IMG/VR virus record: IMGVR_UViG_3300012919_000005
Location: 1 to 64,000 of that record
From: a virus
Length of the DNA stretch: 64,000 nucleotides
Strand: one strand, 5' to 3'
Numbering within the stretch: the first letter of the stretch is position 1; each line of letters starts with the position of its first letter. The position numbers and the translations under genes were made by a program. The notes under the pieces are model-generated. The model did not search any database, was not told the origin of the DNA, and worked only from the letters and a program-made list of their open reading frames with translations. This document shows positions 5,199-62,229 of this stretch, piece by piece.

Positions 5199-6064
5199 TA
5201 TCTATGTGCCGTGCCTCCGCCACTACCGCCCGAACTACCACCACTTGAAGCAGTACCCCCGCTTGCACTCCCAATATAAGAAGGCAGTGCTGTGCCTGCC
5301 TGCATATCAAATGTTGTGTTATTTATTTCGCCTGATTGAAAACCCTGACTCAATACAGACCCGCCTATTTTCATAGTTCCATATAGTACTGGAACTGGTT
5401 GTCCTTGTTCAATGTTAGAATTTGCTCCATTAAATAGGAATGAAGGATCGCTTGTTTGATCTCCGGGGTCTGGCATCATATATTCTGTTAGCCCTGTAAT
5501 ACCTAACATAGCTCCTGTTCCCATAACTGCATACCCTGCAGTATTTAGAGAAGCCCCATACTTTAATGCTTCTGATGTAGTCAAAGCAGCTGCTCTTTCT
5601 TGTCCTACGCTTACTGCTATATCAGTTGTCATTGATATTGTTTCTCCTGTGCTAGCAAATTGTACACTTCCTAATTCTACAGTCTTACTACTTGTAGTTG
5701 CTCCCATTGTACCCCCTTCTGTCATTGCGCCACCTAATCCAGGTAGATGAAATAGCCCATACATTATAAAAACTGCAGCAATAAGTTTTTTAATACCTTT
5801 ACCAGAACCTGCAGGAACTGGAGTTATAACAACAGTGTCTTTTAGAATTGGAAGTATAAAGTCATTTAAATCATCATCTAAAAAATCATTTCCATTTTTT
5901 ACTGTAAATCCTATACCTTTATTTGCACATTCTACTAAATAATCTTGTAACCCATCATATTGACAATCAATTAACTTAAAAATTTCACGCAAAGAACTAG
6001 ACCCAGATTTCCAATCTGTGCCAAATTTTTCTCCTAATTCTCCTAATAATTTAACATGGGTCAT
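5198..6064 (-). CDS. I: Tail assembly protein, lambda gpI-like
   Basis: 288 aa. An N-terminal ubiquitin-like fold of the gpI type (VKLLGELGEKFG..., acidic patch DFLDDDLNDF), then PVPAGSGKG and a hydrophobic Gly/Ala-rich stretch (about residues 90-115), then a Gly/Ser-rich C-terminal tail. In lambda, gpI is needed for tail-tip assembly with gpK but is absent or cleaved in the mature particle. It overlaps the gpK-like gene by 14 nt and the J start by 1 nt, as in lambda-type tail operons. Call rests on domain look and position. Confidence 0.85.
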   Translation of the reverse strand: MTHVKLLGELGEKFGTDWKSGSSSLREIFKLIDCQYDGLQDYLVECANKGIGFTVKNGNDFLDDDLNDFILPILKDTVVITPVPAGSGKGIKKLIAAVFIMYGLFHLPGLGGAMTEGGTMGATTSSKTVELGSVQFASTGETISMTTDIAVSVGQERAAALTTSEALKYGASLNTAGYAVMGTGAMLGITGLTEYMMPDPGDQTSDPSFLFNGANSNIEQGQPVPVLYGTMKIGGSVLSQGFQSGEINNTTFDMQAGTALPSYIGSASGGTASSGGSSGGSGGGTAHR

Positions 6065-6398
6065 AAATATATTCTCCTTTTTCTGGTAGTGATACGATTA
6101 GATATGGTATACCTAAAATTTTTGCAGCATCTTTATCATGCTGACTTGGGCGACAATCTTGCATATAGTGACTATGGACTACATATAATATTTTTGAAAT
6201 AATCGAGTACTTAACGAATTCTTTTGGGTCAATCTCAAAGTGATTTTTTGTTTCACTCATATTTCTCAGAGGAATAAAAGAAGGGTCGTCTTCGTCAATA
6301 ATCAATCCACATCCTTCCATTGGAGCCGCTTTTGCCATATGGTCATAGATTTCTGGTAGTAGTTTACTTAAATTTTCTTGCACCTGGAAATCCTCCAA
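6051..6398 (-). CDS. K: Tail assembly JAMM peptidase, lambda gpK N-domain-like
   Basis: 115 aa with a complete JAMM/MPN zinc-peptidase signature: Glu28 (MEGCGLI), His75-x-His77, then Ser85-x-x-Asp88 (HSHYMQDCRPSQHD). In lambda gpK this domain is followed by an NlpC/P60 domain, which is absent here, so this is a JAMM-only version. It probably acts with the gpI homologue during tail-tip maturation. It overlaps the gpL-like gene by 35 nt and the gpI-like gene by 14 nt. Confidence 0.88.
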   Translation of the reverse strand: MEDFQVQENLSKLLPEIYDHMAKAAPMEGCGLIIDEDDPSFIPLRNMSETKNHFEIDPKEFVKYSIISKILYVVHSHYMQDCRPSQHDKDAAKILGIPYLIVSLPEKGEYIYDPC

Positions 6399-7575
6399 AA
6401 GGTAATACTTTACTTGTATCTTTTAAAGCTTTACCTGTACTACTTGCTGTTCCTGAATTTATAGGATTAAATCCAAATCTACATTGACAAGAAGAAACTC
6501 TTTTTCCACAAAGATCTCCTCTTCTCCAATACTGTCCAAATCCAGGTACATTACCCTGTGTTGTTATTTTTGCTTTCCATATAAAAGCAGTTCCTGAAGT
6601 AGCTTTTACATAGTTATTATGCCTATCATCAGTATAAGCATAGTAAGTTGTACTTGCATTATAGTTTTCAAATACTCTAATTCTGCTCCAGTCATCACTA
6701 CTATCAGAGGGTGCCTCAGTAGTAGCTCTTATTGTTTGCCAGTAATTTATTACAGTACTGCCATCTGCCCCTGTGTCGATTGTACCATCTTTATTATATC
6801 TTCTTACGCCACTTGCTATTCCAAGAGTAGTTGTAGTTTTATGATAAGTATTTGCAACTTTAGTCCCTGAAGTATAAGTCGAAAAACTAGTTGAAGATGG
6901 TAAAAGATATTCATCATCTTCATTTACATATACATTATAAGTTGTTCCAGTTATATTATATTTTCCTTCTTCGTGCCAAGTACACCCTCCTCTTCTTTCA
7001 GAAATTGATTTAGTAGGACTTACTCCTTGAAATACCCATGGACATGCATTATGCCCTACCACACGGTAAGGAAGTACTAATCCTTCTACACTGAAAGGGC
7101 TTGTTACTTCAAAGGCAACTTCTAGTGCATTCTCTGTTTCTACTCTGTCAATAACCCATACTTGTCTACCAAACTCTATTGGAGTATTTCCACTGCCAGG
7201 GTCTGCACTCCCGTCTTTTAAATATTTAGCTAGTGTTTTTCTTCTGTAAAGTTTTTTACCGACTAAAGATTGAAAATCTGAAGTTCCTAATTCTGTTTCA
7301 AAGTCTGTAGTAATATTTGAAAATCGTATAACAGGCCTAGGTGCTGTACCTTGACCACTAATTTCGAATCCTTCTTGTTCTATTGGAACTGCTTGATATG
7401 TTCGTAAAGTACTATTATTATCATAATCATACATTTGAATAGCATTTAAATCACTATCTAAAGCATGAGTAAAGAAAGCTTTTCCTGTTGTAATTTTGTC
7501 TATTTCATATAAAGTTACAAGTCCAGAAGATTGTTCTAAACCTTGAACTTCCTTGATTGCAATTTTTTCCGTCAT
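6364..7575 (-). CDS. L: Tail tip protein, lambda gpL-like, with Fe-S ligand cysteines
   Basis: 403 aa, longer than lambda gpL (about 230). The C-terminal part has four spaced cysteines matching the family pattern: Cys178 (HNACPW), Cys198 (GGCTW), Cys356 and Cys363 in DLCGKRVSSCQCRFG; Cys365 is an extra one. Lambda gpL-type proteins are known to bind an iron-sulfur cluster through this set. An insertion of about 150 residues lies between the second and third cysteine and is rich in Thr, Ser and Tyr. The late operon also encodes IscU- and IscA-like proteins, which could load the cluster (inference). Confidence 0.88.
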   Translation of the reverse strand: MTEKIAIKEVQGLEQSSGLVTLYEIDKITTGKAFFTHALDSDLNAIQMYDYDNNSTLRTYQAVPIEQEGFEISGQGTAPRPVIRFSNITTDFETELGTSDFQSLVGKKLYRRKTLAKYLKDGSADPGSGNTPIEFGRQVWVIDRVETENALEVAFEVTSPFSVEGLVLPYRVVGHNACPWVFQGVSPTKSISERRGGCTWHEEGKYNITGTTYNVYVNEDDEYLLPSSTSFSTYTSGTKVANTYHKTTTTLGIASGVRRYNKDGTIDTGADGSTVINYWQTIRATTEAPSDSSDDWSRIRVFENYNASTTYYAYTDDRHNNYVKATSGTAFIWKAKITTQGNVPGFGQYWRRGDLCGKRVSSCQCRFGFNPINSGTASSTGKALKDTSKVLPFGGFPGARKFK

Positions 7576-23423: not shown

Positions 23424-23452
23424 ATTATACTAAAAGTGGCAACAAATGTCAA
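23424..23452 (-). promoter_or_regulatory. Sigma70-type promoter for the terL unit
   Basis: Minus strand TTGACA, 17 bp, TATAAT, directly after the cyclase gene and before the coiled-coil membrane gene. Should drive the small basic genes and terL. Confidence 0.88.
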
Positions 23453-23455
23453 GTA

Positions 23456-25237
23456 CTATTTTCGTATGGTATAGATTTCAACGGGCTCATTCTTTCCTTT
23501 AACCTTTACTTGGTCTAAAAACTCGTAATCGTAATCATCGAGTAAACTGTGTTCGGAAATTATTAAGTCAGTATCGTACTCTTTACAACTTGATTCTAAA
23601 CGCGCAGCAAGGTTGACAGAATCCCCAAGAACGCTATAGTCGAAGCGAGTGCTAGAACCAAAGTTTCCGACCACGCAGAGTCCTGTATTGATTCCCGCTC
23701 CTGTATTAATTTGATCCAAGCCTTCTTCTCTGAGTCTTTCATTTAACTCTCCTAATGATTCTCGCATTTCGAGAACCGCCTTGGTTGCATTCTCCACTTG
23801 ATTTTCATCGTCAAGTGGTGCACCCCAAAATGCCATTATACAATCTCCCATATACTTGTCAATTGTACCGCCATGTTTTAATATAATCTCTGTTTGATTG
23901 TCTAAAAATCTATTTATTAACTCAGTTAATCCTTGTGGATCTTTTTGATATTTTTCCGATATTGGTGTAAATCCTCGAATATCAGAAAATAAAAATGTTA
24001 GTCGTTTTGTCTCCCCACCCAATCTCAGCAATGTTGGGTCTTTTTGTAATTTTTTAACCAAGGCAGGACTAACGTATGTCCCAAATTGTCGTTTTATTTC
24101 CATTTTCTCGAAGTAGGTCTTTATAAAATTCCTGAAACTTTCAATACTCCAGAATAAAATCGATATTAAAATAATGCCTGAAACGTCAAATAAGTAAGAA
24201 GATTGAAAGGCATACCAGGCTCCATATGCTGAACCTCCTACAACTAGCACTAAAGCGGGCAAGCTTAAATAAATTCTACTAGCTGTTAGTAATAAAACGA
24301 GCAAAGCTAAGACTGCAGCTCCTAGCTCCGCTCCTGCACTCCAATTTGGAATTGAAGGCGCTGTGCCTGATACTAAATTATGCAATACATTTGCTTGTAC
24401 CTCATGCGGGTATTTAGCTCCAGATGCAGTAGGAACTGGATTTACCACTCCTTCTGCTGTTACTCCAAATATAACAAAAGGTGCAGGAATTGGATCAGCC
24501 ATATATTGTGCTGCAGTTTGTCTATAAAACTTTACATTCGTATTTATCCAAATAAACCCATTAGCATCGGTATTCATATTTGGATAGTTAGGAACTCGAA
24601 TCCACTCTACACCTGTATCTCCAGTTTTAATTTGATAGCTTGGGTCGCCTACAGCGAGTCTAAGCATTTCTAGTGCAAAACTTGGGTATATTTTTCCCTC
24701 ACTTCCTACGACTACGGGCAGTCGCCTGACGACGCCGTCTAGCTCTGGTGAGGAGTTTACGATACCTTTGCCGTCTGCGCTTACCGATAAGATTGGTAAT
24801 TGTCGTAAAATTCCTGGATATGTTAATAGCCATTCTAATGGATCACCTCCTAATTGAGCAGTACCTACATGAGGGCCTAGCTCAGATGCTTGTGTTGATG
24901 CTGCGTAAGCTAACACTGTGGGTTTATTGGCTAATGCACTTGCTAAGTACAAGTCATTTTCGTTGCCACGTAAATCTGGGTCAGGCATAAGAATAGTAAA
25001 GCCCCCTATTCCAGGAGTCCTTTCTATCATTTGTCCATATAGTTTTCTTGGAAGTGGATAACCTCCGTATGCTTCGACGATGTTTTCATCGATGTCGACA
25101 ATTAGAATATTGTCATTTTGAATTTCTGGTTGACTATTCATAATATAGTCGAATGTTTTTAGTTCTAGAATTTGTAGAGGGTACGGATTCCAGATAAAGA
25201 ATCCGAGTACCACTCCAAAAGTAATTAATCTTACCAT
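23456..25237 (-). CDS. CHASE2-domain adenylate/guanylate cyclase
   Basis: 593 aa. Signal-anchor at residues 1-20; CHASE2 sensor about 30-290 outside the inner membrane (ILIVDIDENIV, GGYPLPRKLYG); membrane helices about 303-370; class III cyclase domain about 410-593. Catalytic residues appear intact: metal Asp419 (FLFSDIRGFT) and Asp465 (YMGDCIMAF), purine-binding Lys461, transition-state Asn542 and Arg546 (GDSVNLAARLE). It should make a cyclic nucleotide, most likely cAMP, in response to an envelope signal. Last gene of the cargo block; its ATG overlaps the preceding stop. Host-derived acquisition is likely. Confidence 0.93.
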   Translation of the reverse strand: MVRLITFGVVLGFFIWNPYPLQILELKTFDYIMNSQPEIQNDNILIVDIDENIVEAYGGYPLPRKLYGQMIERTPGIGGFTILMPDPDLRGNENDLYLASALANKPTVLAYAASTQASELGPHVGTAQLGGDPLEWLLTYPGILRQLPILSVSADGKGIVNSSPELDGVVRRLPVVVGSEGKIYPSFALEMLRLAVGDPSYQIKTGDTGVEWIRVPNYPNMNTDANGFIWINTNVKFYRQTAAQYMADPIPAPFVIFGVTAEGVVNPVPTASGAKYPHEVQANVLHNLVSGTAPSIPNWSAGAELGAAVLALLVLLLTASRIYLSLPALVLVVGGSAYGAWYAFQSSYLFDVSGIILISILFWSIESFRNFIKTYFEKMEIKRQFGTYVSPALVKKLQKDPTLLRLGGETKRLTFLFSDIRGFTPISEKYQKDPQGLTELINRFLDNQTEIILKHGGTIDKYMGDCIMAFWGAPLDDENQVENATKAVLEMRESLGELNERLREEGLDQINTGAGINTGLCVVGNFGSSTRFDYSVLGDSVNLAARLESSCKEYDTDLIISEHSLLDDYDYEFLDQVKVKGKNEPVEIYTIRK

Positions 25238-25521
25238 TTAACTTTGTTTGCCCAATAAGCTGCAGACATTTTTCCTTTGGCTATGTTTCTTCTATGTCTT
25301 GCTTTGAATGAAGCTCTTTTCTTCTTCATTCTCATTGATTCACCTTTCTTTGGTTTACCAGCAGTTTTTGCTCCCTGCTGTCCAAATCGTATTGTCTTTA
25401 TTTTGTTGCCTACTTTAGCAACTACAATATGAGACTTCTTAGGGTGTCCAGGTGTTCTTTTTGGTTTATTAAAACCTCTAACGCCTGCTCTTTTTAGTCT
25501 TGGATCTTTTTTTCTTGGCAT
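25231..25521 (-). CDS. Basic protein, DUF6321-like
   Basis: 96 aa, Lys/Arg-rich. Motifs KKSHIVVAKVGNKIKTIRFG and the ending KARHRRNIAKGKMSAAYWAN match a phage/viral family of unknown function that I recall as DUF6321. Overlaps the preceding basic gene by 44 nt and the cyclase start by 7 nt. Possible DNA-associated protein. Confidence 0.75.
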   Translation of the reverse strand: MPRKKDPRLKRAGVRGFNKPKRTPGHPKKSHIVVAKVGNKIKTIRFGQQGAKTAGKPKKGESMRMKKKRASFKARHRRNIAKGKMSAAYWANKVKW

Positions 25522-25801
25522 TGTTTGCTCTCCTTAAACTTGCCTTACCAGATTTAAATACTGATGCGACAGTTTTCTTGCCCATAACTTTTGCTCGTTG
25601 TTCTCCTACAGTTAGTATTTGAATTTTTCTAGCATAAGACTTACGGACTCTTTTTACTTTTCGTACTGTTGCTCTTGCATCTTTTACAGTTGCAAATTTA
25701 ATTCTAACGGTATCTTTTGGATTCTCGTCAGTATAGAGTCTTCTTCCAGACCCCTTAGGTTTTTTACCTGTTCCTTTTTTTGGATCTCTTTTCTTACTCA
25801 T
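25478..25801 (-). CDS. Basic phage protein with GSGRRLYTDENPKDT motif
   Basis: 107 aa, strongly basic at both ends. The core KGSGRRLYTDENPKDTV and ARKIQILTVGEQRAKVMGK is, to my memory, conserved in marine myoviruses without known function. The Lys/Arg C-terminus (AKKKRSKTKKSRR) suggests nucleic-acid binding. Confidence 0.72.
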   Translation of the reverse strand: MSKKRDPKKGTGKKPKGSGRRLYTDENPKDTVRIKFATVKDARATVRKVKRVRKSYARKIQILTVGEQRAKVMGKKTVASVFKSGKASLRRANNAKKKRSKTKKSRR

Positions 25802-26225
25802 TGTCTATTATTACCCAAGTATTATTTATAACTACTAACGCACCAAGTGTGTTAAAATTTTCTATTGTTTCAATGTCTTCAAAAACATTCATTGTATATA
25901 GTAAATAATTAACTGCTAATTTTTGAGCTATCAATCTTTCTAAAGAAGGATAGTCTGGTAGTAAAGGATTTAGCTCTTTTCCGTACCTTCCACGTATTGC
26001 TCTATTTGTAGTGTATACATCAAGTACATTCCAAGCAACCCATTCATGAATATGTGAGTTATCTGACATTTTAAAATGCATTGTTTGATTTTGATTGTAT
26101 TGTTCTATGAGTAAAGCATCTGCTTTAATTTGTTCATAGTCCCAAGGTATATCAACCTCCAGATTGGCGGATTGTAATGACTGAGCCAGACCCAGAGTTA
26201 AGAATAATGTTATAAGCTTTTCCAT
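25794..26225 (-). CDS. Secreted/periplasmic protein, DUF5658-like
   Basis: 143 aa with a signal peptide (LITLFLTLGLAQSLQSA, residues 3-19). The region WNVLDVYTTNRAIRGRYGKELNPLLP resembles the DxxTT...ENP pattern of DUF5658-type proteins. It overlaps the FecR gene by 74 nt and is likely co-translated with the curli-type cluster. No specific function known. Confidence 0.65.
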   Translation of the reverse strand: MEKLITLFLTLGLAQSLQSANLEVDIPWDYEQIKADALLIEQYNQNQTMHFKMSDNSHIHEWVAWNVLDVYTTNRAIRGRYGKELNPLLPDYPSLERLIAQKLAVNYLLYTMNVFEDIETIENFNTLGALVVINNTWVIIDNE

Positions 26226-27270
26226 CTTGTTCTATTATTATATTATAACTTGTAGTGCCATTTAAATCAAGTCTCACATTTTGATTAACTTGTCTTAAAA
26301 TGCTTACTACTTCCCCATCTGTAAATGTGGTAATTTGGGTTGTGGGGTCATTCCCAAATTGTGTACCTTGTAAATCTATAGGCGAAAAGCCATCTTGGGC
26401 TAACTCGTCCTCAGAGGATAGAGCATCTAGTTCTTCAATAACATCTAATAAATCCTCTAAAAAGTTTACGTCTAAGTATTCGATATCTAGTTCTGTGAAT
26501 TCTAATTCATCTGTAGCTAAATAATCTGTTTCTAACTCGTCGTAATCGAGGAAATCGATATCAAGAATATTGTTATCAGAGTCGTCAGTTCGAGCTTCTC
26601 CTGCAGTTTGTCCTTCTTCATCTTTCTTTGGTGGGCTCACTATGAGCATATTATCTATGAGGTCTAGTGTCAGATCCAGTATTACTGGTCTAGTAGGAAT
26701 TGCTTCCCATACACTCGTAACAGTAGACTCATATGGTTTGTTTAAAATTACAGAACCCAAAGCAGTTGTTACGACAATCTCCCCTGAGCTTATACCAAAT
26801 TCGTCTGGTAAAAGAATAACCAAACTTCTTCCTAATTCATCAACGGTAACAGTAAAATCTGTCCCACGAATTGCTATCTGAGAAGTTGGTGTTGATAGAT
26901 TAATGTTTTGTTTATTAATACTACCTATCTTTCCAGTTATAAAACGAGCAGTCCCACTGGCAAACTTAAGTGCCATTTCTGACTTGTTTGGGTCGGGATT
27001 AAAAACAACCTTATCAATAATAAGTTTGCTATGCTCTGTTAGTCTGACTTTGCTATCATCTAAAAACGATATTGCTAATCGGCCATTACCTGTGCGAACA
27101 TCGTCCATTTGCTGTATGTCAAAGCCAACCTCAGCGGTATAGGTGTCATCTCGTAAGACAGCACCTATTCCACGAAGTTCTGTGATATCACCTATATTGT
27201 CAGCATGAAGTGGAGGTGCCACCATCATTTTGAACAATACAAATATTTGAATTAGATGTATCAGCTTCAA
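26152..27270 (-). CDS. FecR-domain secreted protein
   Basis: 372 aa. Signal peptide residues 1-23 (LIHLIQIFVLFKMM...HA). FecR domain about 30-170: RGIGAVLRDDTY, DDVRTGNGRLAISFLDDSKVRL, GTARFITGKIG, TPTSQIAIRGTDFTV. A very acidic Asp/Glu/Leu linker spans about 220-290. The last 45 residues (QNVRLDLNG...IIIEQDGKAYNIIL...ITIRQSGG) look like curlin repeat strands. It overlaps the curlin-like gene by 71 nt. FecR proteins are often next to CHASE2 cyclases in bacteria and may relay an envelope signal; a surface-fibre adaptor is the alternative. Confidence 0.85.
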   Translation of the reverse strand: MKLIHLIQIFVLFKMMVAPPLHADNIGDITELRGIGAVLRDDTYTAEVGFDIQQMDDVRTGNGRLAISFLDDSKVRLTEHSKLIIDKVVFNPDPNKSEMALKFASGTARFITGKIGSINKQNINLSTPTSQIAIRGTDFTVTVDELGRSLVILLPDEFGISSGEIVVTTALGSVILNKPYESTVTSVWEAIPTRPVILDLTLDLIDNMLIVSPPKKDEEGQTAGEARTDDSDNNILDIDFLDYDELETDYLATDELEFTELDIEYLDVNFLEDLLDVIEELDALSSEDELAQDGFSPIDLQGTQFGNDPTTQITTFTDGEVVSILRQVNQNVRLDLNGTTSYNIIIEQDGKAYNIILNSGSGSVITIRQSGG

Positions 27271-27916
27271 TTTTCAACCAGTCTGCTGCAAGTGTAGAAG
27301 ATTGAGTAATAGTCATTGTATTACTATCTCCGTCTAAATCTAAATAGAAATAAGCGGCATCGCTACTGCTTGCTCCGTATCCACTGCCTGTGAATGTAAG
27401 TGTATTAGAGTCTCCTAAAATGTCCATGTAATTTGTGGCGTATGCAGAATCTAAGTCTAGAGTGATTTCATTACTGTCACCAGTAAATAACCAGTCTAAG
27501 TCTAAATACGATACGTCATCATCTTGGCCTAAGTCGATATCTGCTGTGTTTGAAGAACCAGTAATGTCAAAATTTAAATTAACATAGTCTGCTCCGTTTA
27601 AACCATCAGTATCCATACTTATAGTCCATTCGTTAGAGTCACCAATAAAATCAAATGTTCCAGTGAAGTTATCACCTATTATTCCGTCAGTAAGAAATAA
27701 GTTGGAGGCTCCTATTTGATTTAAATCTAATGTCCAAGAGGTGCCATTTAATATTGCTGCTGTCATTGAACCTGTTGTTGCATTTAATCCACCAATTAAA
27801 TTGCTGGAACCAAGTTGTTCAATATCTATTGCTGCATTGTCACCTGTTTGGTCGATATAGATTTCATTGTCTGCATAGAGACCGATTGATAAAAATAAGG
27901 CAAATAAAGCTCTCAT
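27200..27916 (-). CDS. Curlin-like secreted fibre protein
   Basis: 238 aa. Signal peptide residues 1-16 (MRALFALFLSIGLYA). The mature part has about seven imperfect 25-30-residue repeats built on xDxxGxSNxxxI, for example IYIDQTGDNAAIDIEQ, FIGDSNEW, ITGSSNTADI, FTGDSNEITL, LGDSNTLTF, LDGDSNTMTI. This Gln/Gly/Asn ladder is the hallmark of curlins (CsgA/CsgB), which stack into amyloid. It is more acidic than CsgA and has two Cys in the last 17 residues. It directly follows csgG, the channel that would export it. Confidence 0.85.
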   Translation of the reverse strand: MRALFALFLSIGLYADNEIYIDQTGDNAAIDIEQLGSSNLIGGLNATTGSMTAAILNGTSWTLDLNQIGASNLFLTDGIIGDNFTGTFDFIGDSNEWTISMDTDGLNGADYVNLNFDITGSSNTADIDLGQDDDVSYLDLDWLFTGDSNEITLDLDSAYATNYMDILGDSNTLTFTGSGYGASSSDAAYFYLDLDGDSNTMTITQSSTLAADWLKIEADTSNSNICIVQNDGGTSTSC

Positions 27917-27917
27917 T

Positions 27918-28769
27918 TTACTCTCCCATGTAGTACTTCCAGTACCCTTTCTCTATTCCTTGTTTAATTAACGCTACTACTCCTGTTTCTACTGCTGCTT
28001 GCACAGCGATATACTTAGGTTCATTCATTGTGTTTCCACTTTCAAATTCAACGAGTTCAGTATCATTTGAATGAAATCTAAAATAGTCATTACTTAAACC
28101 TACGGATAGAATTGCTTTTGAAGTAAGGATCTCCAATAAGATTTCTCCTGTACTCACAGAAACTAATCTCATAGAAACGATTACCTTATCTTCACGATAT
28201 TGTTTAGAAGTGCCAATGCCTAAGTTTCTAGCACCTACACCTCCAGTTAATAAGTTAGTATTGTAATCAACAATACCACCTTCGATAATAAGACCAGCAA
28301 ACAGTAAAGGTTGCTGCTCTTTATCGTCTTCAAAACTTTGTCTTGTTTGTCTAATTAATTGTCTTTCTTTTGTTAAGTGGTCTAACCCTTTTCTTTCTAC
28401 CACTTTGAAGAAGCCGGATTGTTTTAATGCACGAATTAAATATGCTTCTGGTGCTTGTGTGACTGCACTTGAGAAGTCTGCTATACCGTCCCTTGATTTT
28501 CTTTGACCAGTTAAGTCTTCAAACTTATATACTGCAACAACAGGAACTCGTGCCGGTAATGGCACAGTAGTTATTGCTTTTGTTATCGGTTGCTCAATAA
28601 TAGAATCACCAGAGAAACATTTTGCTTCTCCAACAATTGTGACTAAGTCTTTGTAATCCCCTTGAGGATTAGTTAGACAGGGTGATGCGTATTTCCAGTG
28701 CGTTGCGCAACTAGAAACCAAAATCGCCGATAGGGATAGTAATAGTAGTTGTTTCACCTGTAGCTTCAT
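27918..28769 (-). CDS. csgG: Curli secretion channel lipoprotein CsgG
   Basis: 283 aa. Signal peptide with lipobox LVSSC (lipidated Cys21). Close to Escherichia coli CsgG along its length, especially VVAVYKFEDLTGQ, VERKGLDHLTKERQLIRQ, GGVGARNLGIG, VSMRLVSVSTGEILLEILTSKAIL. In the constriction loop the aromatic of CsgG Phe56 is kept (ADFSSAV), while Asn55 is Asp and Tyr51 is not conserved, so pore selectivity may differ. CsgG nonamers form the outer-membrane channel for curlin. CsgF lies immediately upstream, curlin immediately downstream. Confidence 0.95.
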   Translation of the reverse strand: MKLQVKQLLLLSLSAILVSSCATHWKYASPCLTNPQGDYKDLVTIVGEAKCFSGDSIIEQPITKAITTVPLPARVPVVAVYKFEDLTGQRKSRDGIADFSSAVTQAPEAYLIRALKQSGFFKVVERKGLDHLTKERQLIRQTRQSFEDDKEQQPLLFAGLIIEGGIVDYNTNLLTGGVGARNLGIGTSKQYREDKVIVSMRLVSVSTGEILLEILTSKAILSVGLSNDYFRFHSNDTELVEFESGNTMNEPKYIAVQAAVETGVVALIKQGIEKGYWKYYMGE

Positions 28770-29196
28770 TAAATATAGTTAGGGTGATTGATATACCATC
28801 TGATGTCCAAGTAATTAGATTATCAAATAATGTAAATGACCCTTCCGTTGCAGGATTCTCTCCAAATAGCTGGTCTACCAACTGTCTAGAAAGCTGTGCA
28901 TAAATTCTACTCTCAAAGTTCTTTAAAAATCTAGCAAGAGTAGTATTATCTTCTTCTCTTTGCAAAGCTTCTTGCATTGCTTTTATTTCTAGTCTTAGTG
29001 CCTCTTTTCTTGAGAACTCTTGATTCTCAATGGTTAAGTAGTGACTTGATGTACCTATGCCACTAAAAGAGGGTGACTTGAATTCATGTTTAATTTCATC
29101 TGCAGAAAGTTCTGCTACAAATAAAACGCTAAGTAGTACAAAAATTGTGCCTAGTACAGCATTAGATACTCTATTGTTTATTTTTCTTTCGTTCAT
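28711..29196 (-). CDS. csgF: Curli assembly factor CsgF
   Basis: 161 aa with a signal peptide (VLGTIFVLLSVLFVAELSA). The mature start HEFKSPSFSGIG matches CsgF TFQFRNPNFGG, the part that plugs into the CsgG pore, and the C-terminal half has SRQLVDQLFG and ITLTIFNEATGETTTITIP like CsgF. CsgF sits on the outside of CsgG and anchors the nucleator. It overlaps csgG by 59 nt. No CsgE, CsgC or CsgD homologue was seen in the window. Confidence 0.9.
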   Translation of the reverse strand: MNERKINNRVSNAVLGTIFVLLSVLFVAELSADEIKHEFKSPSFSGIGTSSHYLTIENQEFSRKEALRLEIKAMQEALQREEDNTTLARFLKNFESRIYAQLSRQLVDQLFGENPATEGSFTLFDNLITWTSDGISITLTIFNEATGETTTITIPIGDFGF

Positions 29197-29425
29197 TTTC
29201 TTTTAACTGTAAAACTGTGTCCAGTTTCTTTTGCAGTCGAATCATATCATTATCTAACATTCTTATCTGGTCAATTAACTGTAAGATTGTCATCTTCATG
29301 TCTTCGATTGCAGGGTCTATCTTTTCGGTTACTGTAGTCCAAACAAAGTATACGAAATATCCTAATCCAACCATTGCAACAACTGGAAAACCAAATTGTT
29401 GAATAGCATCAATCACGTCTTGCAT
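29171..29425 (-). CDS. Small membrane protein, UviB/BhlA-like (copy 2)
   Basis: 84 aa: one membrane helix (FPVVAMVGLGYFVYFVW, residues about 13-29) then a charged coiled coil ILQLIDQIRMLDNDMIRLQKKLD. This resembles UviB/BhlA holin-like proteins common in marine phages. It appears to be a paralogue of the gene just upstream (shared MxNDMIxI/L pattern). Precedes csgF with overlapping reading frames. Confidence 0.72.
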   Translation of the reverse strand: MQDVIDAIQQFGFPVVAMVGLGYFVYFVWTTVTEKIDPAIEDMKMTILQLIDQIRMLDNDMIRLQKKLDTVLQLKENERKKNKQ

Positions 29426-29702
29426 CTATACTTCCTGATTCTACAAAATTTTCTGCTCTTGCTATTTTATCTAAGTCTGGTGTGAGTCCAAGAGCTGAAC
29501 TTACACTCATGTCTATCTTAATCATATCATTGTTCATTGTTTTAATACGAGTAATTAGCATTTTTGAAATACCTTGTACTTCACAAGTATCGCCTACTAC
29601 ATCGTCCATAATTTTTCTTATGATTAAAAAGATGAAGCCTCCCATAAACAGTGCTGCTGCTATTGGTGCTCCTACTTGTCCTATTATATCAAATACTTCC
29701 AT
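29409..29702 (-). CDS. Small membrane protein, UviB/BhlA-like (copy 1)
   Basis: 97 aa: N-terminal membrane helix (GAPIAAALFMGGFIFLIIRK) and a following helix with ITRIKTMNNDMIKIDMSV. Same plan as its downstream neighbour. ATG overlaps the stop of nothing but follows the Fe-S carrier gene at once. Could be a holin or a virion membrane component. Confidence 0.7.
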   Translation of the reverse strand: MEVFDIIGQVGAPIAAALFMGGFIFLIIRKIMDDVVGDTCEVQGISKMLITRIKTMNNDMIKIDMSVSSALGLTPDLDKIARAENFVESGSIDARRD

Positions 29703-30067
29703 TATACCTCTATTGCGAATATTTTATCTTTATCTACCTTTTCTAAATCAAAATTTATTGAAACTCCACAACCACAAGAAGACTGCTCTTTTGGGTTGAT
29801 AAACTTAAATACTTCATTTAGTCCTTCTACTTGAAAGTCTAATGTCATTCCTACTAAGTATGGAACTGATATTTTATCTATTAGTATCCTAAAGAGTCCA
29901 TAATCCAATTCCACGTCTTCTTCAGTAGCTGCATTATTAGTCCGATCAAATACATACTCAAAACCAGCACACCCCCCACCAGTAATACCCAAGCGGATAC
30001 CAGTAAACTTCTCTCTTTCCTGTTTCTCCAAAATCTTGGTGATTGCTTCATCTGTAATCTCTATCAT
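29702..30067 (-). CDS. A-type iron-sulfur carrier (IscA/ErpA-like)
   Basis: 121 aa, normal length. The three family cysteines are present: Cys33 (GGGCAGFEY) and Cys98-x-Cys100 (SSCGCGVS). Such proteins receive [2Fe-2S] or [4Fe-4S] clusters from scaffolds and pass them to targets. The ATG overlaps the stop of the preceding small gene. In the same operon as an IscU-like scaffold, so it forms a minimal scaffold-plus-carrier pair without cysteine desulfurase; sulfur would come from the host IscS. Confidence 0.95.
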   Translation of the reverse strand: MIEITDEAITKILEKQEREKFTGIRLGITGGGCAGFEYVFDRTNNAATEEDVELDYGLFRILIDKISVPYLVGMTLDFQVEGLNEVFKFINPKEQSSCGCGVSINFDLEKVDKDKIFAIEV

Positions 30068-30314: not shown

Positions 30315-30728
30315 TCATTTATTATCTTTGTCATGTTGCTTCTGCTCCCAGTTTTCAATTGCTTTTTTAATCGAATCTTCAGCTAAAACAGAACAGTGTA
30401 ATTTTATTGGAGGCAATTGTAATGCCTCGGCTATGTCTTTATCTTTTATTAATTTGGCTTCTTCTATGCTAAGGCCTTTCAGCATTTCAACAAACATAGT
30501 AGAGGAAGCAATTGCGCTTCCACAACCATAGGTCTTAAACTTGATATCTGTAATAATATCGTTTTCATCTAGTTTAAGTTGTAACTTCATGACATCACCA
30601 CATGCGGGTGCTCCTGTCATTCCTGTTGCTACATTTGGGTCTTTTGGATCAAACCGACCGACGCTAAACTGCTGCGGACTGTTCAAGACTCCGTAAAATC
30701 TTTCTGTGACTTCTTTACTATAGGCCAT
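30315..30728 (-). CDS. iscU: IscU-type iron-sulfur scaffold
   Basis: 137 aa. All active-site elements are intact: Cys43 and Asp45 (APACGDVMKL), Cys69 (TYGCGSAIASS), the HscA-binding LPPIK loop (about 105-109) and Cys112 (KLHCSVLAED). This is a complete IscU rather than a fragment of NifU. It should build clusters with host IscS. Its ATG overlaps the terS stop (TAATG), tying its synthesis to the packaging gene. Likely acquired from a proteobacterium. Confidence 0.96.
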   Translation of the reverse strand: MAYSKEVTERFYGVLNSPQQFSVGRFDPKDPNVATGMTGAPACGDVMKLQLKLDENDIITDIKFKTYGCGSAIASSTMFVEMLKGLSIEEAKLIKDKDIAEALQLPPIKLHCSVLAEDSIKKAIENWEQKQHDKDNK

Positions 30729-31195
30729 TATTTTTTCTCTTCTTTGAGAAGCTTGGACATAAGCTTCCCATAGTTCCCTGTGCCAAAGGCACCATCATTT
30801 ATTTGTACATTAGTTTGATTTTTAATATTTGTAGCTTTTGCTTTTTCTAGTTCTGCTTGAGCTTTTAGTTCGTCCATTCTCATTTTGTGGGCCATTTGTA
30901 GTAAGTCTGCGAGGTCTTTGCTAGTATATATTTCCGACTCTTCGGCTTCTTCCATTTTCTTATCAATCAAAGTATCTAATGTGTCCGCAAGTTTAAATCT
31001 ATTTCTATACCCTGTGTCTAGATATACAGTGTCAATATATTGTTTGACTTCTCTGCGATTTAATATTTCACTAACTTGCGCTTCTCCTAAACCCATTCTA
31101 AGGCTAACAGTCGGGATTGAGCCATGCTGCAAATATGCATTGGCTATCTCGAGACCCTCTGGGCTTATTTTTGTTGTTAAAGCTACACTTGACAT
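30728..31195 (-). CDS. terS: Terminase small subunit candidate
   Basis: 155 aa. N-terminal helix-turn-helix-like part (LEIANAYLQHGSIPTVSLRMGLGEAQVSEILNR split over residues 15-47), a long helical middle, and a charged tail, the plan of TerS proteins that bind DNA and form rings. First gene of the leftward late unit, with ATG 8 nt from the -10 box, so the mRNA is nearly leaderless. Call is by layout and fold pattern, not by a unique motif. Confidence 0.7.
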   Translation of the reverse strand: MSSVALTTKISPEGLEIANAYLQHGSIPTVSLRMGLGEAQVSEILNRREVKQYIDTVYLDTGYRNRFKLADTLDTLIDKKMEEAEESEIYTSKDLADLLQMAHKMRMDELKAQAELEKAKATNIKNQTNVQINDGAFGTGNYGKLMSKLLKEEKK

Positions 31196-31203
31196 ATAAA
31201 CAT

Positions 31204-31232
31204 ATTATACTAAAAATATAACCATTTGTCAA
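31204..31232 (-). promoter_or_regulatory. Sigma70-type promoter, leftward late region
   Basis: Minus strand TTGACA, 17 bp, TATAAT. The start codon of the TerS candidate is 8 nt past the -10, giving a leaderless or near-leaderless message. Drives TerS and the cargo block. Confidence 0.88.
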
Positions 31233-42025: not shown

Positions 42026-42421
42026 ATGACAATAGATAACCTATTATATAAGCACTTTCTCGGCTTTGACGAGAGATTTTTTAACCCTGTCGAAGATACA
42101 CAATATCCTCGACATAATATAGTAACACACGGTGATGACTACTTTCGAATTGAAATGGCGTTGCCAGGCTGGATAAAAGAGAACATTAAAGTCCAATTAG
42201 ACAAGCGAGTCTTGACTATTGAAGGCACACAAAAACTCGAGTGTGGAGAAGAAGAACAATATTTACACAAAGGAATAAGTGGAAAAATGTTTAAGAGAAC
42301 ATTCTCATTGGGTGAGTTCATAGAAATCCAAGGAGTAAAGTTTGAAAACGGCTTGCTAAGCATTGAATTAGAGAAAGTCATACCCGAAGATAAAAAACCA
42401 AAGGTATATGACATTCAATGA
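42026..42421 (+). CDS. Small heat-shock protein, Hsp20/IbpA family
   Basis: 131 aa with a full alpha-crystallin domain: YFRIEMALPGW, IKVQLDKRVLTIEG, YLHKGISGKMFKRTFSLGE, ENGLLSIELEK. The usual C-terminal IxI is reduced. ATP-independent holdase; phage copies may protect proteins during late infection. Has a dedicated promoter and structured leader. Confidence 0.93.
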   Translation: MTIDNLLYKHFLGFDERFFNPVEDTQYPRHNIVTHGDDYFRIEMALPGWIKENIKVQLDKRVLTIEGTQKLECGEEEQYLHKGISGKMFKRTFSLGEFIEIQGVKFENGLLSIELEKVIPEDKKPKVYDIQ

Positions 42422-51345: not shown

Positions 51346-52065
51346 ATGGCATTACCAAAGTGGACAGACGAGAGAACCGATCAACTGGTTAACTTTGTCG
51401 GTGACGGACCTGTTTCCCAACATCAAGTAGCTGAAGCTGCTGATATGTTAGAAACTTCAACAAGAAGTGTTTCTAGCAAGTTGAGAAAAATGGGTTATGA
51501 AGTTGAATTAGCTTCTTCATCAGCAACTAAAGCTTTTTCTGATGAACAAGAAGCAACCCTACAAAATTTTGTAGAATCAAACAGCGGAACATATACATAC
51601 GCTGAAATAGCAGAGTCTTTTGAAAACGGACATTTTTCTGCTAAATCAATACAAGGAAAAATCCTTTCTATGGAATTAACAGAACATGTTAAACCAGCAG
51701 AGAAAGTTGTAACACCTAGAACTTACAACGAAGACGAAGAAGCACAGTTTATTCAAATGGTAAACGATGGTGCTTTCGTAGAAGCTATAGCTGAAACTCT
51801 TGACAGAAGTGTAAACTCTATCAGAGGTAAAGCTCTTTCTTTACTTAGAAGTGGCGATATTAACGCTATTCCTAAGCAAGAGTTCACAAAAGGCTCAAAC
51901 AAAGCTGACCCTTTTGCAGACTTAGATATTGCTTCAATGACTGTAGAAGAAATCTCAGAAAACATCGGCAAAACTGTTAGAGGCGTGAAAACAATGCTAA
52001 CAAGAAGAGGTCTTGCATCAGCAGACTACGATGGTTCAGCTAGAAAAGAAAAATCAGTCAGCTAA
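51346..52065 (+). CDS. Multi-HTH protein (paralogue family member 4, repeated units)
   Basis: 239 aa with about four tandem helix-turn-helix-like units: residues 5-50 (WTDERTDQLVNFV, TSTRSVSSKLRKMGYE), 60-110 (FSDEQEATLQNFV, FSAKSIQGKILSM), 125-165 (YNEDEEAQFIQMV, RSVNSIRGKALSL) and 190-225 (MTVEEISENIGK, RGVKTMLTRRG). Acts probably as a DNA-coating or regulatory protein. Related to the 36122/40313/47171 genes. Ends before a terminator. Confidence 0.78.
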   Translation: MALPKWTDERTDQLVNFVGDGPVSQHQVAEAADMLETSTRSVSSKLRKMGYEVELASSSATKAFSDEQEATLQNFVESNSGTYTYAEIAESFENGHFSAKSIQGKILSMELTEHVKPAEKVVTPRTYNEDEEAQFIQMVNDGAFVEAIAETLDRSVNSIRGKALSLLRSGDINAIPKQEFTKGSNKADPFADLDIASMTVEEISENIGKTVRGVKTMLTRRGLASADYDGSARKEKSVS

Positions 52066-57122: not shown

Positions 57123-57502
57123 AAAAATTAATTTTTTGGATAGTAGATTGCTGGAGACTTGTTATGGATATGAGATATAATCCTCTAAGACATATAAAAG
57201 ACCCATCAATACAAATGTATTTCTATCTAGCACTCTTTATTATGTGGAGTGGTTACTTTTCTGTAGTAGCATGGACATGGTTAGCATGGGAAAACTATAG
57301 TGTAGTTGTATCAATTATTATACATATGGCTGTATTAGTTCCCCTATTTATTACTACTCAGATATTTGCAGAAGCAGAAAAGAATGGTTCCAAATGGTAT
57401 AGACAATACCGAACTGAACAAAGCATTGAAGCGATGAATCAAAGACTTAAACAAAGAAACTATGAAAAGCGTGTAAAATGGGATATAGATAGAGAAGCAT
57501 GA
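57119..57502 (+). CDS. Membrane protein of the cytochrome/DoxX cassette
   Basis: 127 aa; two membrane helices (FYLALFIMWSGYFSVVAWTW, VVVSIIIHMAVLVPLFITT) and a basic cytoplasmic tail. ATGA overlap with polA and with the cytochrome gene. No family recognised. Confidence 0.7.
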   Translation: MKKLIFWIVDCWRLVMDMRYNPLRHIKDPSIQMYFYLALFIMWSGYFSVVAWTWLAWENYSVVVSIIIHMAVLVPLFITTQIFAEAEKNGSKWYRQYRTEQSIEAMNQRLKQRNYEKRVKWDIDREA

Positions 57503-57948
57503 GAAACGAATCATTTTATTTAGTTATAGGTATATGTGGTTTTATGTATGGCATAATATCACATACTTACTCAAATCTAGAGTATAAAGGTTATGAAAGA
57601 AATACTGCATGTTATGGCGAATGTTATGAAAAATATGTAGAAGAAAATGGCACAGTAGTTGAACAACTACAAGCAAAACAAGCTGCAGCAGCAGAAGACC
57701 CTTTCTCTTCAATAAGAGGACTATGGGCAGGCTGTGCTGCTTGTCACGGACAAAATGGACAGGGTATGGGAATATTTCCTAAACTCGCAGGACAAAGTTC
57801 GGAGTATATAGTTGATAGACTTACAACTTATAAAAATAGAGGAGAAGTAGGAAACATGAGTTCTACAATGTGGGCTCAAGCAGGAATGTTATCTGAGCAA
57901 GATATGCAAACAATAGGTAACTTTATTGAGGAAACTATGAATGAATAG
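57499..57948 (+). CDS. Membrane-anchored c-type cytochrome
   Basis: 149 aa. Signal anchor (YLVIGICGFMYGIIS), a linker with Cys38 and Cys42, then a class I cytochrome domain with the heme motif Cys79-AA-Cys82-His83, FPKLAGQSSEYIVDRL and a Met-rich loop for the sixth ligand (NMSSTMW). Resembles c4/c553-type electron carriers of the periplasm; maturation needs host machinery. Overlaps the DoxX-like gene. Confidence 0.9.
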   Translation: MRNESFYLVIGICGFMYGIISHTYSNLEYKGYERNTACYGECYEKYVEENGTVVEQLQAKQAAAAEDPFSSIRGLWAGCAACHGQNGQGMGIFPKLAGQSSEYIVDRLTTYKNRGEVGNMSSTMWAQAGMLSEQDMQTIGNFIEETMNE

Positions 57949-58399
57949 ATTTAAAGCTCCACCAAATATAGCAACCTTCTTCTTAAGAATACCATTGTCG
58001 GCTATGTTTCTTCAGCAGGGACTAAGTAAGTTACCTGTTGATGGTACAGTTGCCGAAGCATGGGGATTGCCGTATATAGTATGGTGGTTTGTAACTTGGG
58101 GAGAGATTGGTGCTGCTGTAGGACTAATGGTAGGTGGACTAATAGGACTAATACCTTGGACAGCTAAGCATTTCTTCTTAGCAAGAATAGGTAGACACCA
58201 CCCTAATTTTAAGTTGATAACTGAAGAGTTAGGAGACTTAATTACAAGATTTAGTGGTATTACAATGACTTGTATAGCTACTGGGGTCATTTGGATTCTC
58301 AGTCCTGCAAGTCTATGGGACGTAATTTATAATGACTATTTACATATAAGTTTATATGTTGGTGGTCTTTATTTCGCATTAAGAGGAAATGTAAGATGA
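57941..58399 (+). CDS. DoxX-like membrane protein
   Basis: 152 aa, four hydrophobic segments. FFLRIPLSAMFLQQGLSKLP, then WGEIGAAVGLMVGGLIGL, follow the DoxX family (quinol-oxidase-linked or oxidoreductase-associated). With the cytochrome it suggests an electron-transfer cassette. Confidence 0.75.
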   Translation: MNRFKAPPNIATFFLRIPLSAMFLQQGLSKLPVDGTVAEAWGLPYIVWWFVTWGEIGAAVGLMVGGLIGLIPWTAKHFFLARIGRHHPNFKLITEELGDLITRFSGITMTCIATGVIWILSPASLWDVIYNDYLHISLYVGGLYFALRGNVR

Positions 58400-61689: not shown

Positions 61690-62229
61690 ATGATTGGAGT
61701 TGGAGAAAAATTTCCCGAGTTCGAAATGAATGGAGTAATCGGTAGTGGCGGTAATGCAGATTTACCTGACCATGACTTCTGTACTGTAAACAGTTGGGGG
61801 TTGACAGATTGGTCTATCATTTATTTTTATCCAAAAGATTTTACATTTATCTGTCCAACAGAAATTGTAGCTATGGATAAGTTAATGAACGAAACAACTG
61901 ACATCATTGGTGTTAGTGGAGATAATGAATACTGCAAATTTGCATGGAGAACAGCAGATGAACACCATGACTTATATGCGGTAGAACACGTCTTAGCTGC
62001 AGACTGTGGTCTTAAGTTAGCTTCAGAACTAGGAATAGTAAATGAAGACGAAGGAGTTTGCTACAGAGCAACTTACATACTTGACCCAGAAGGAATCATA
62101 AGACATGTATCAGTCAACGAACTTGACACAGGAAGAAATGCGGAAGAGATTAGAAGAACTCTTAAAGCACTTAAAGCTGGTGGACTCACTGGTTGTGCAT
62201 GGGAAGAAGGAGATGATTTCGTAGCATGA
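61690..62229 (+). CDS. Peroxiredoxin (AhpC/TSA family)
   Basis: 179 aa. FPEFEMNGV start, peroxidatic Cys in DFTFICPTE (about residue 55), VSGDNEYCKFAWR, DPEGIIRHVSVN and a late GCAWE that may hold a resolving Cys. Reduces hydrogen peroxide and organic peroxides. Follows SSB after a few bases and overlaps the nuclease gene. Confidence 0.94.
   Translation: MIGVGEKFPEFEMNGVIGSGGNADLPDHDFCTVNSWGLTDWSIIYFYPKDFTFICPTEIVAMDKLMNETTDIIGVSGDNEYCKFAWRTADEHHDLYAVEHVLAADCGLKLASELGIVNEDEGVCYRATYILDPEGIIRHVSVNELDTGRNAEEIRRTLKALKAGGLTGCAWEEGDDFVA

Follow-up and report, generated by a model that had tools for sequence, protein, structure and literature searches.

What would a bacteriophage gain from a curli-type (type VIII) secretion system, and does the set that it carries amount to a working one? 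This question is raised by the window analyzed here, that is, the whole stretch formed by positions 1 to 64,000 of the IMG/VR virus record IMGVR_UViG_3300012919_000005 (75,528 bases in total, about 36% GC). At 26152-29196, on the minus strand (gene direction 29196 to 26152), it encodes CsgF, CsgG, a curlin-like protein and a FecR-domain protein; the original prediction had placed a curli-type set there, and Pfam matches of CsgF, CsgG, Curlin_rpt and FecR confirmed it. Our main finding is that these genes are the core of a larger module, whose sequence speaks for an exporter together with a cargo of its own, and from which we infer export, polymerisation and a benefit to the phage. It seems to us rather probable that the exporter would be functional and deliver its curlin-like cargo to the surface of the cell. 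The predicted range held for the core and failed for its extent: the module runs to 29702 upstream and to 23456 downstream. The view of the system as 'minimal' was not borne out either, as two conserved small membrane proteins before CsgF and a CHASE2-cyclase (23456-25237), which is the last gene, also belong to it. In gene order, the module comprises:

29409..29702, minus strand: predicted one-helix membrane and coiled-coil protein of 97 aa, a paralogue of the 84-aa protein (phrog_18771, E 5.2e-23)
29171..29425, minus strand: predicted one-helix membrane and coiled-coil protein of 84 aa (phrog_18771, E 4.3e-27)
28711..29196, minus strand: CsgF, predicted pore partner (PF10614, E 1.1e-17; N-terminal FKxPxFxG pore-insert motif conserved)
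27918..28769, minus strand: CsgG, predicted outer-membrane channel lipoprotein (PF03783, E 2.4e-47; lipobox Cys21 invariant)
27200..27916, minus strand: curlin-like secreted protein, candidate fibre subunit, with a C-terminal Cys pair (PF07012, AlphaFold2 model, BFVD matches and dN/dS)
26152..27270, minus strand: predicted secreted FecR-domain protein with an acidic linker and a curlin-like C-terminal tail, TTG start (PF04773, E 1e-11)
23456..25237, minus strand: predicted CHASE2 sensor and class III nucleotide cyclase (PF05226, E 5.8e-30; PF00211, E 1.4e-20)

What characterizes a type VIII system was found here: a CsgG channel lipoprotein, a CsgF with an N-terminal pore insert, and a substrate with curlin repeats. 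CsgG and CsgF had been called clear, contiguous and overlapping, and they are, given the profile matches listed above and the 59 nt by which their reading frames overlap. A profile of 17 phage CsgGs matched the solved E. coli CsgG with E 7e-65, and the CsgF insert motif aligns, weakly, with the solved CsgF. The predictions of CsgG as an outer-membrane channel lipoprotein and of CsgF as its pore partner are strongly supported, and the family assignments support the broader proposal of a phage type VIII set that comprises a channel, its pore partner and a candidate fibre. This set was expected to lack CsgE, and indeed CsgE (PF10627) was not found in the whole 75.5-kb record. CsgE is an accessory component, reported not to be essential for curli (PMC7029224), and is also absent from published phage modules; we therefore did not use its absence to exclude type VIII membership.

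The product of 27200-27916 had been presented as a signal-peptide protein with seven curlin-like repeats, which is a fair description. Its N-terminus is signal peptide-like, and the search for curlin repeats with hidden Markov models that had been suggested gave, once run, one Curlin_rpt match (PF07012) above the Pfam cut-off (E 1.4e-4), with matches also in 14 of 17 aligned homologues. GxxN motifs occur eight times in the mature protein, where shuffled sequences would give 2.0 (p about 5e-5). Seven follow each other with a spacing of 22-33 residues (36, 69, 92, 120, 146, 168 and 196), and the eighth (42) is extra. Structure prediction, also suggested, went part of the way. The AlphaFold2 model (17 homologues) is all-beta, with pLDDT 80.3 and pTM 0.79, and is made of strand-turn-strand units with short turns at the GxxN motifs; its best matches among BFVD viral models are phage 'Curlin associated' proteins (E 3.1e-5). 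The dN/dS of the gene is 0.02-0.14, and the curlin homologue of locus L012 cleanly lacks one repeat that its near relative L022 has. The evidence strongly supports the prediction that this protein is co-selected as the cargo and bears the signature of a repeat beta-solenoid.

In the FecR protein, a signal peptide-like N-terminus immediately precedes the FecR domain. In the structural model, which is poor overall (pLDDT 54.6), this domain matches the PupR fold (Foldseek, prob 1.00), and no other part was matched. The last 70 residues are predicted to form beta strands, with pLDDT 74-85 over most of them, and the tail ends in I-x-I/V-x-Q, where I and Q are invariant in 21 homologues. That this tail is curlin-like, as had been proposed, is supported by its scores against the curlin profile: the median of the FecR tails is 11.8 bits, whereas shuffled tails (n=1,620) have a median of 0.3 bits and reach 13.0 at most. 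An anti-sigma regulator was considered and rejected: the FecR domain is present, and both the cytoplasmic anti-sigma domain at the N-terminus and an adjacent FecI-type gene are absent, no FecI-type sigma gene being found within the module. The prediction of a secreted protein that ends in a curlin-like tail and is not an anti-sigma factor is strongly supported; through this tail, the protein may join the fibre.

For the cyclase, the strongly supported predictions are a CHASE2 sensor on the extracytoplasmic side and conservation of the catalytic residues. Residues D419, K461, D465, N542 and R546, to which we assign the catalytic metal and transition-state roles, are the same in all 14 sequences compared. 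The gene lies at the same junction, just upstream of the same flanking genes, in 28 TerL-anchored contigs, and three contigs are clearly without it. At the usual junction, the siphovirus contigs L252, L259 and L285 have no cyclase and carry instead a repetitive low-complexity protein (two of them) or a coiled-coil protein. A stop, either real or a sequencing error, breaks the cyclase frame in a close relative (L003, 7494-7522; L210 is on the same contig). Class III cyclases scored above the cut-off in 2 of 79 Pelagibacteraceae genomes, in both on contigs bearing this module. One virus contig with the full module (L031) encodes a cNMP-binding protein at 5767-6417, divergently from csgF. The published signalling route goes via a regulator dependent on cyclic AMP (cAMP). 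A FecR-domain protein adjoining CHASE2 sensors is known from the Burkholderia BiofilmReg operon, a biofilm operon where it is likewise secreted (PMC5192318); that operon differs in having a histidine kinase output and no Csg genes.

The two small proteins before CsgF, whose hydrophobic helix and coiled coil were read by sequence inspection, stand where 'histidine kinases', sometimes two, were reported in podophage and myophage modules (PMC9599517). No kinase domain was found in 17 relatives of the 84- and 97-aa proteins. Because they share position and copy number with the published genes and have no kinase domain, 'histidine kinase' is likely a misannotation; from position and copy number, we infer that the two sets of genes are the same.

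How far is such a module already known? It had been thought that CsgG alone was known in some marine phages, which is incorrect: the whole set is on record (HTVC008M record; PMC7029224, PMC9599517, PMC9004378). Zaragoza-Solas et al. 2020 (PMC7029224) described an operon with CsgFG in pelagimyophages, and Wittmers et al. 2022 (PMC9599517) described CsgF, CsgG, CsgA/B, FecR, a second curlin and a cyclase in HTVC023P-type podophages and in myophages. The latter module resembles the present one in its order (CsgF-CsgG-curlin-FecR-(second curlin)-cyclase), in the small gene or genes before CsgF and in the lack of CsgE; here, however, the carrier is a T5-related siphovirus, the site between TerS and TerL is fixed, and an unrelated 143-aa protein replaces the second curlin.

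Two phages with names and records allow a closer comparison. In Pelagibacter phage HTVC008M (KC465899, 6900-13807) all homologues were found in the same order, but this is a T4-like myophage, its CsgG is 43-50% identical, and it has a second curlin with a PA14 domain. Its annotation lists CsgF, CsgG, a 'curlin-associated protein', two hypotheticals and a cyclase; profiles identify the hypotheticals as FecR and the second curlin (L001, 10638-11963), in which the PA14 domain is combined with curlin repeats, consistent with an adhesive fibre. Methylophilales phage Melnitz (MZ577097) has CsgF, CsgG, two curlins, FecR and cyclase annotated in the same order, and differs in being a T4-like myophage of OM43. 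Buchholz et al. 2022 (PMC9004378) discussed Melnitz together with the idea of a lysis pore and described the fibre genes as missing; contrary to the text of that paper, two proteins in the record as deposited bear the annotation 'curlin associated repeat'.

The order s97-s84-CsgF-CsgG-curlin-FecR-cyclase (s97 and s84 being the 97- and 84-aa proteins) is common to siphovirus and myovirus-like contigs with CsgG down to 44-54% identity, and is also that of HTVC008M and Melnitz. Purifying selection acts on CsgF, CsgG, curlin, FecR and cyclase, with dN/dS <=0.24 in the eight pairs tested. E. coli curli (CsgA-G) have in common with the phage set the CsgG channel, the CsgF pore partner and the curlin repeats; unlike them, the phage set has no CsgE, its cargo repeats are degenerate, and FecR and the CHASE2-cyclase are added. 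The literature search found no report of the module in such siphoviruses, most subscription journals and preprints lying outside this search. The module is thus already known in kind, and what is new is the siphovirus lineage as its carrier and the evidence on its parts.

A counterpart also exists in a bacterium. On a 705-kb contig of Hyphomonas sp. TMED17 (L036), a chromosomal operon has csgF-csgG-curlin-FecR-CHASE2 cyclase in the same order and is flanked on either side by metabolic genes. It differs in that no small membrane genes were found, its curlin has 504 aa and its cyclase has a C-terminal extension. This is the sole chromosomal case with FecR and cyclase among 80 bacterial CsgG loci and 20 further type VIII secretion system (T8SS) loci of the Hyphomonas order, and searching 385 class genomes and 105 family genomes with a FecR profile brought up no further one; the genome is metagenome-assembled (a MAG), and misassembly is possible. 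The operon qualifies the published statement that FecR and cyclase genes lie outside bacterial T8SS operons. In the CsgG tree, the siphovirus sequences form one clade (100/100), nested in a phage clade that includes the Hyphomonas sequence (100/99) and is separate from all other cellular CsgG. Phage CsgG as a single clade was not rejected (p-AU 0.236); the Hyphomonas row is long-branched, and the bacterium could be donor or recipient. Other MAG contigs with FecR and cyclase (L035, L171-L175) were rejected as bacterial loci, their gene content being phage-like, and are probably binned phage contigs. Phage contigs with the module are binned into genomes of several bacterial phyla (L171-L175, and L292, which is contig C11 of a Pelagibacteraceae genome), where they produce false 'bacterial' csg genes.

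As for the carrier, its closest matches are T5-like: TerL is 49% identical to that of Pectobacterium phage My1 and PolA 45% to that of Proteus phage PM135, two phages that we take to be T5-like, and the capsid is 33-38% identical to those of T5-like phages. The capsid is a fused protease-capsid protein, and a long tail is shown by tape measure, major tail and tail-tip proteins. The record is smaller than the matched T5-like records (75.5 versus about 97-129 kb). Judged by its genes, the carrier is a T5-related siphovirus, the third phage lineage with the module. An HTVC023P-type podophage was rejected, as these average 58.8 kb and 42% GC and are short-tailed, compared to 75.5 kb, about 36% and a tape measure here. 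A TerL scan matched 394 relatives, of which 80 were kept. A near-identity search with the first 25 kb gave no phage match, and Rfam and tRNA searches of the window gave nothing. One 14.6-kb contig of this phage lineage sits in a Pelagibacteraceae genome, which is only suggestive of a SAR11 host, as binning can err. Elsewhere in the window, a cytochrome c and a DoxX protein (Pfam), and a peroxiredoxin and a small heat-shock protein (by eye), encoded at 57499-57948, 57941-58399, 61690-62229 and 42026-42421, form a redox and stress set.

This siphovirus lineage has the module as a near-constant feature between TerS and TerL, with a conserved consensus promoter at each end. The module is part of a tightly packed minus-strand series, in which many adjacent genes overlap, made of TerS, IscU, IscA, the two small membrane proteins, CsgF, CsgG, the curlin-like protein, FecR, the 143-aa protein, two basic proteins and the CHASE2-cyclase. 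The features around and within the module are:

31204..31232, minus strand: perfect sigma-70 promoter TTGACA-17-TATAAT (12/12 match), beginning 37 nt before the TerS start
30728..31195, minus strand: terminase small subunit (TerS), first gene of the unit (phrog_3802, E 6.3e-41)
30315-30728 and 29702-30067, minus strand: IscU-like and IscA-like iron-sulphur assembly genes, between TerS and the export module
25794..26225, minus strand: small protein of 143 aa, function unassigned, with a signal peptide-like start (weak DUF5658 match, E 0.024; synteny)
25231..25801, minus strand: two accessory proteins, small and rich in Lys/Arg (96 and 107 aa), missing from this position in some relatives
23424..23452, minus strand: perfect sigma-70 consensus promoter directly after the cyclase gene, at the head of the next unit

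Of 17 related loci, 14 have a consensus promoter that begins 35-37 nt ahead of TerS, and all intact siphovirus loci that were examined have the second promoter 7 (rarely 14) nt past the point where the cyclase frame ends; several of the promoter-bearing loci are near-identical, so that these counts are not independent. Because two consensus promoters flank it at fixed spacing, the module most likely forms a single transcription unit together with TerS, driven as a whole by the TerS promoter. Expression in late infection, as proposed originally, is not supported: the module shares the TerS promoter, and sequence does not give timing. IscU and IscA are absent from this position in several relatives, and in some IscU is found on the opposite side of the cyclase. 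In most siphovirus relatives the 143-aa protein occupies the place of the second curlin of myophages. At 31193-31232, only about 9 nt separate the end of the TerS promoter from the start codon, which implies a nearly leaderless TerS message. Fourteen perfect or near-perfect sigma-70 promoters lie on the plus strand (34932-60616), several of them within 3 kb around 35-37.6 kb, and six on the minus strand. A 239-aa protein (51346-52065) with a weak sigma-70 region 4 match is possibly a phage transcription factor.

What would this module do? In the infected cell, one transcription unit led by TerS would make the export-and-fibre module. The curlin-like protein would leave through CsgG-CsgF and polymerise on the cell surface, and the FecR protein would join or anchor the fibre by its tail. 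The FecR domain and the CHASE2 cyclase may act as a sensor pair, signalling by cyclic nucleotide in what state the fibre or envelope is, and the altered surface of the infected cell could exclude or trap competing phages, the candidate benefit that we rank first. A self-reporting fibre machine, in which FecR would co-assemble via its tail and engage CHASE2 so that fibre assembly or contact becomes a cyclic-nucleotide signal, is decidedly unlikely.

Several observations weigh against a working exporter and its signalling output. The first repeat alone passes the Pfam cut-off, the remaining curlin repeats being degenerate, and a Foldseek search of the curlin model against PDB gave no match at E<=0.001, its beta-solenoid hits being insignificant. 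The lack of CsgE in the record leaves channel gating and efficiency in question, and the curlin signal of FecR tails is weak (best 17.9 bits), a modest similarity. If the host is SAR11, cAMP would have no obvious receptor, because cNMP_binding occurs in 4 of 79 Pelagibacteraceae genomes and no cyclic-nucleotide-binding domain was found in the phage record. Finally, cultures of Melnitz show no clumping (PMC9004378); as this phage carries the full set, this counts against simple aggregation, under those culture conditions.

Among the possible benefits, an altered surface that excludes competitors is the likeliest, and we favour it over sibling capture, uptake and lysis timing. Superinfection exclusion, in which the fibre would mask receptors or trap virions, is a serious possibility, if still short of even chances, and the claim of export is independent of it. 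Curli layers bind T7 particles (PMC8346279), the module occurs in three phage lineages, and no clumping is required; most of this evidence, however, is common to sibling capture. The latter holds that fibres aggregate host cells, or tether cells or progeny, so that progeny meet new hosts; it was proposed for pelagimyophages (PMC7029224) and restated since (PMC9599517), and the PA14 domain, often adhesive, on one curlin agrees with it, but no clumping was seen in cultures of Melnitz, despite its full set, and we consider sibling capture unlikely. A channel for nutrient uptake (iron, cofactors) with FecR as iron regulator, also proposed (PMC9599517), could draw on the adjoining IscU and IscA genes; yet several relatives lack these genes at this position, the FecR protein combines a signal peptide-like start with a curlin-like tail and has no cytoplasmic anti-sigma domain, and CsgF and the curlins would stay unexplained, which makes uptake quite improbable. 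Very improbable is a CsgG-CsgF repurposed as a lysis pore or pinholin timing progeny release, as proposed for Melnitz (PMC9004378). CsgG is a pore, but an endolysin and an Rz-like spanin are encoded elsewhere in this phage (42569-44084), which also weakens the original idea of opening the outer membrane; the curlin-like, FecR and cyclase genes, needless for a pore alone, are kept under selection, and the proposal relied on the absence of curlins, of which the Melnitz record annotates two.

Surface alteration against competitors, as the favoured reading, bears on how these phages live. That three ocean phage lineages keep the same costly module implies a strong benefit during infection. The carrier lineage is common in the sea (394 TerL relatives), so that the module is wider than the reported podophages and myophages, and with Melnitz a phage carrying the full set is available in culture. 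Rather than an iron regulator, FecR seems to be a fibre component or a sensor ligand, and the chromosomal operon shows that FecR and cyclase accompany csg genes in a bacterium too. If the self-reporting fibre machine were true, phages of three lineages would have kept a complete surface sensor encoded in their own genomes.

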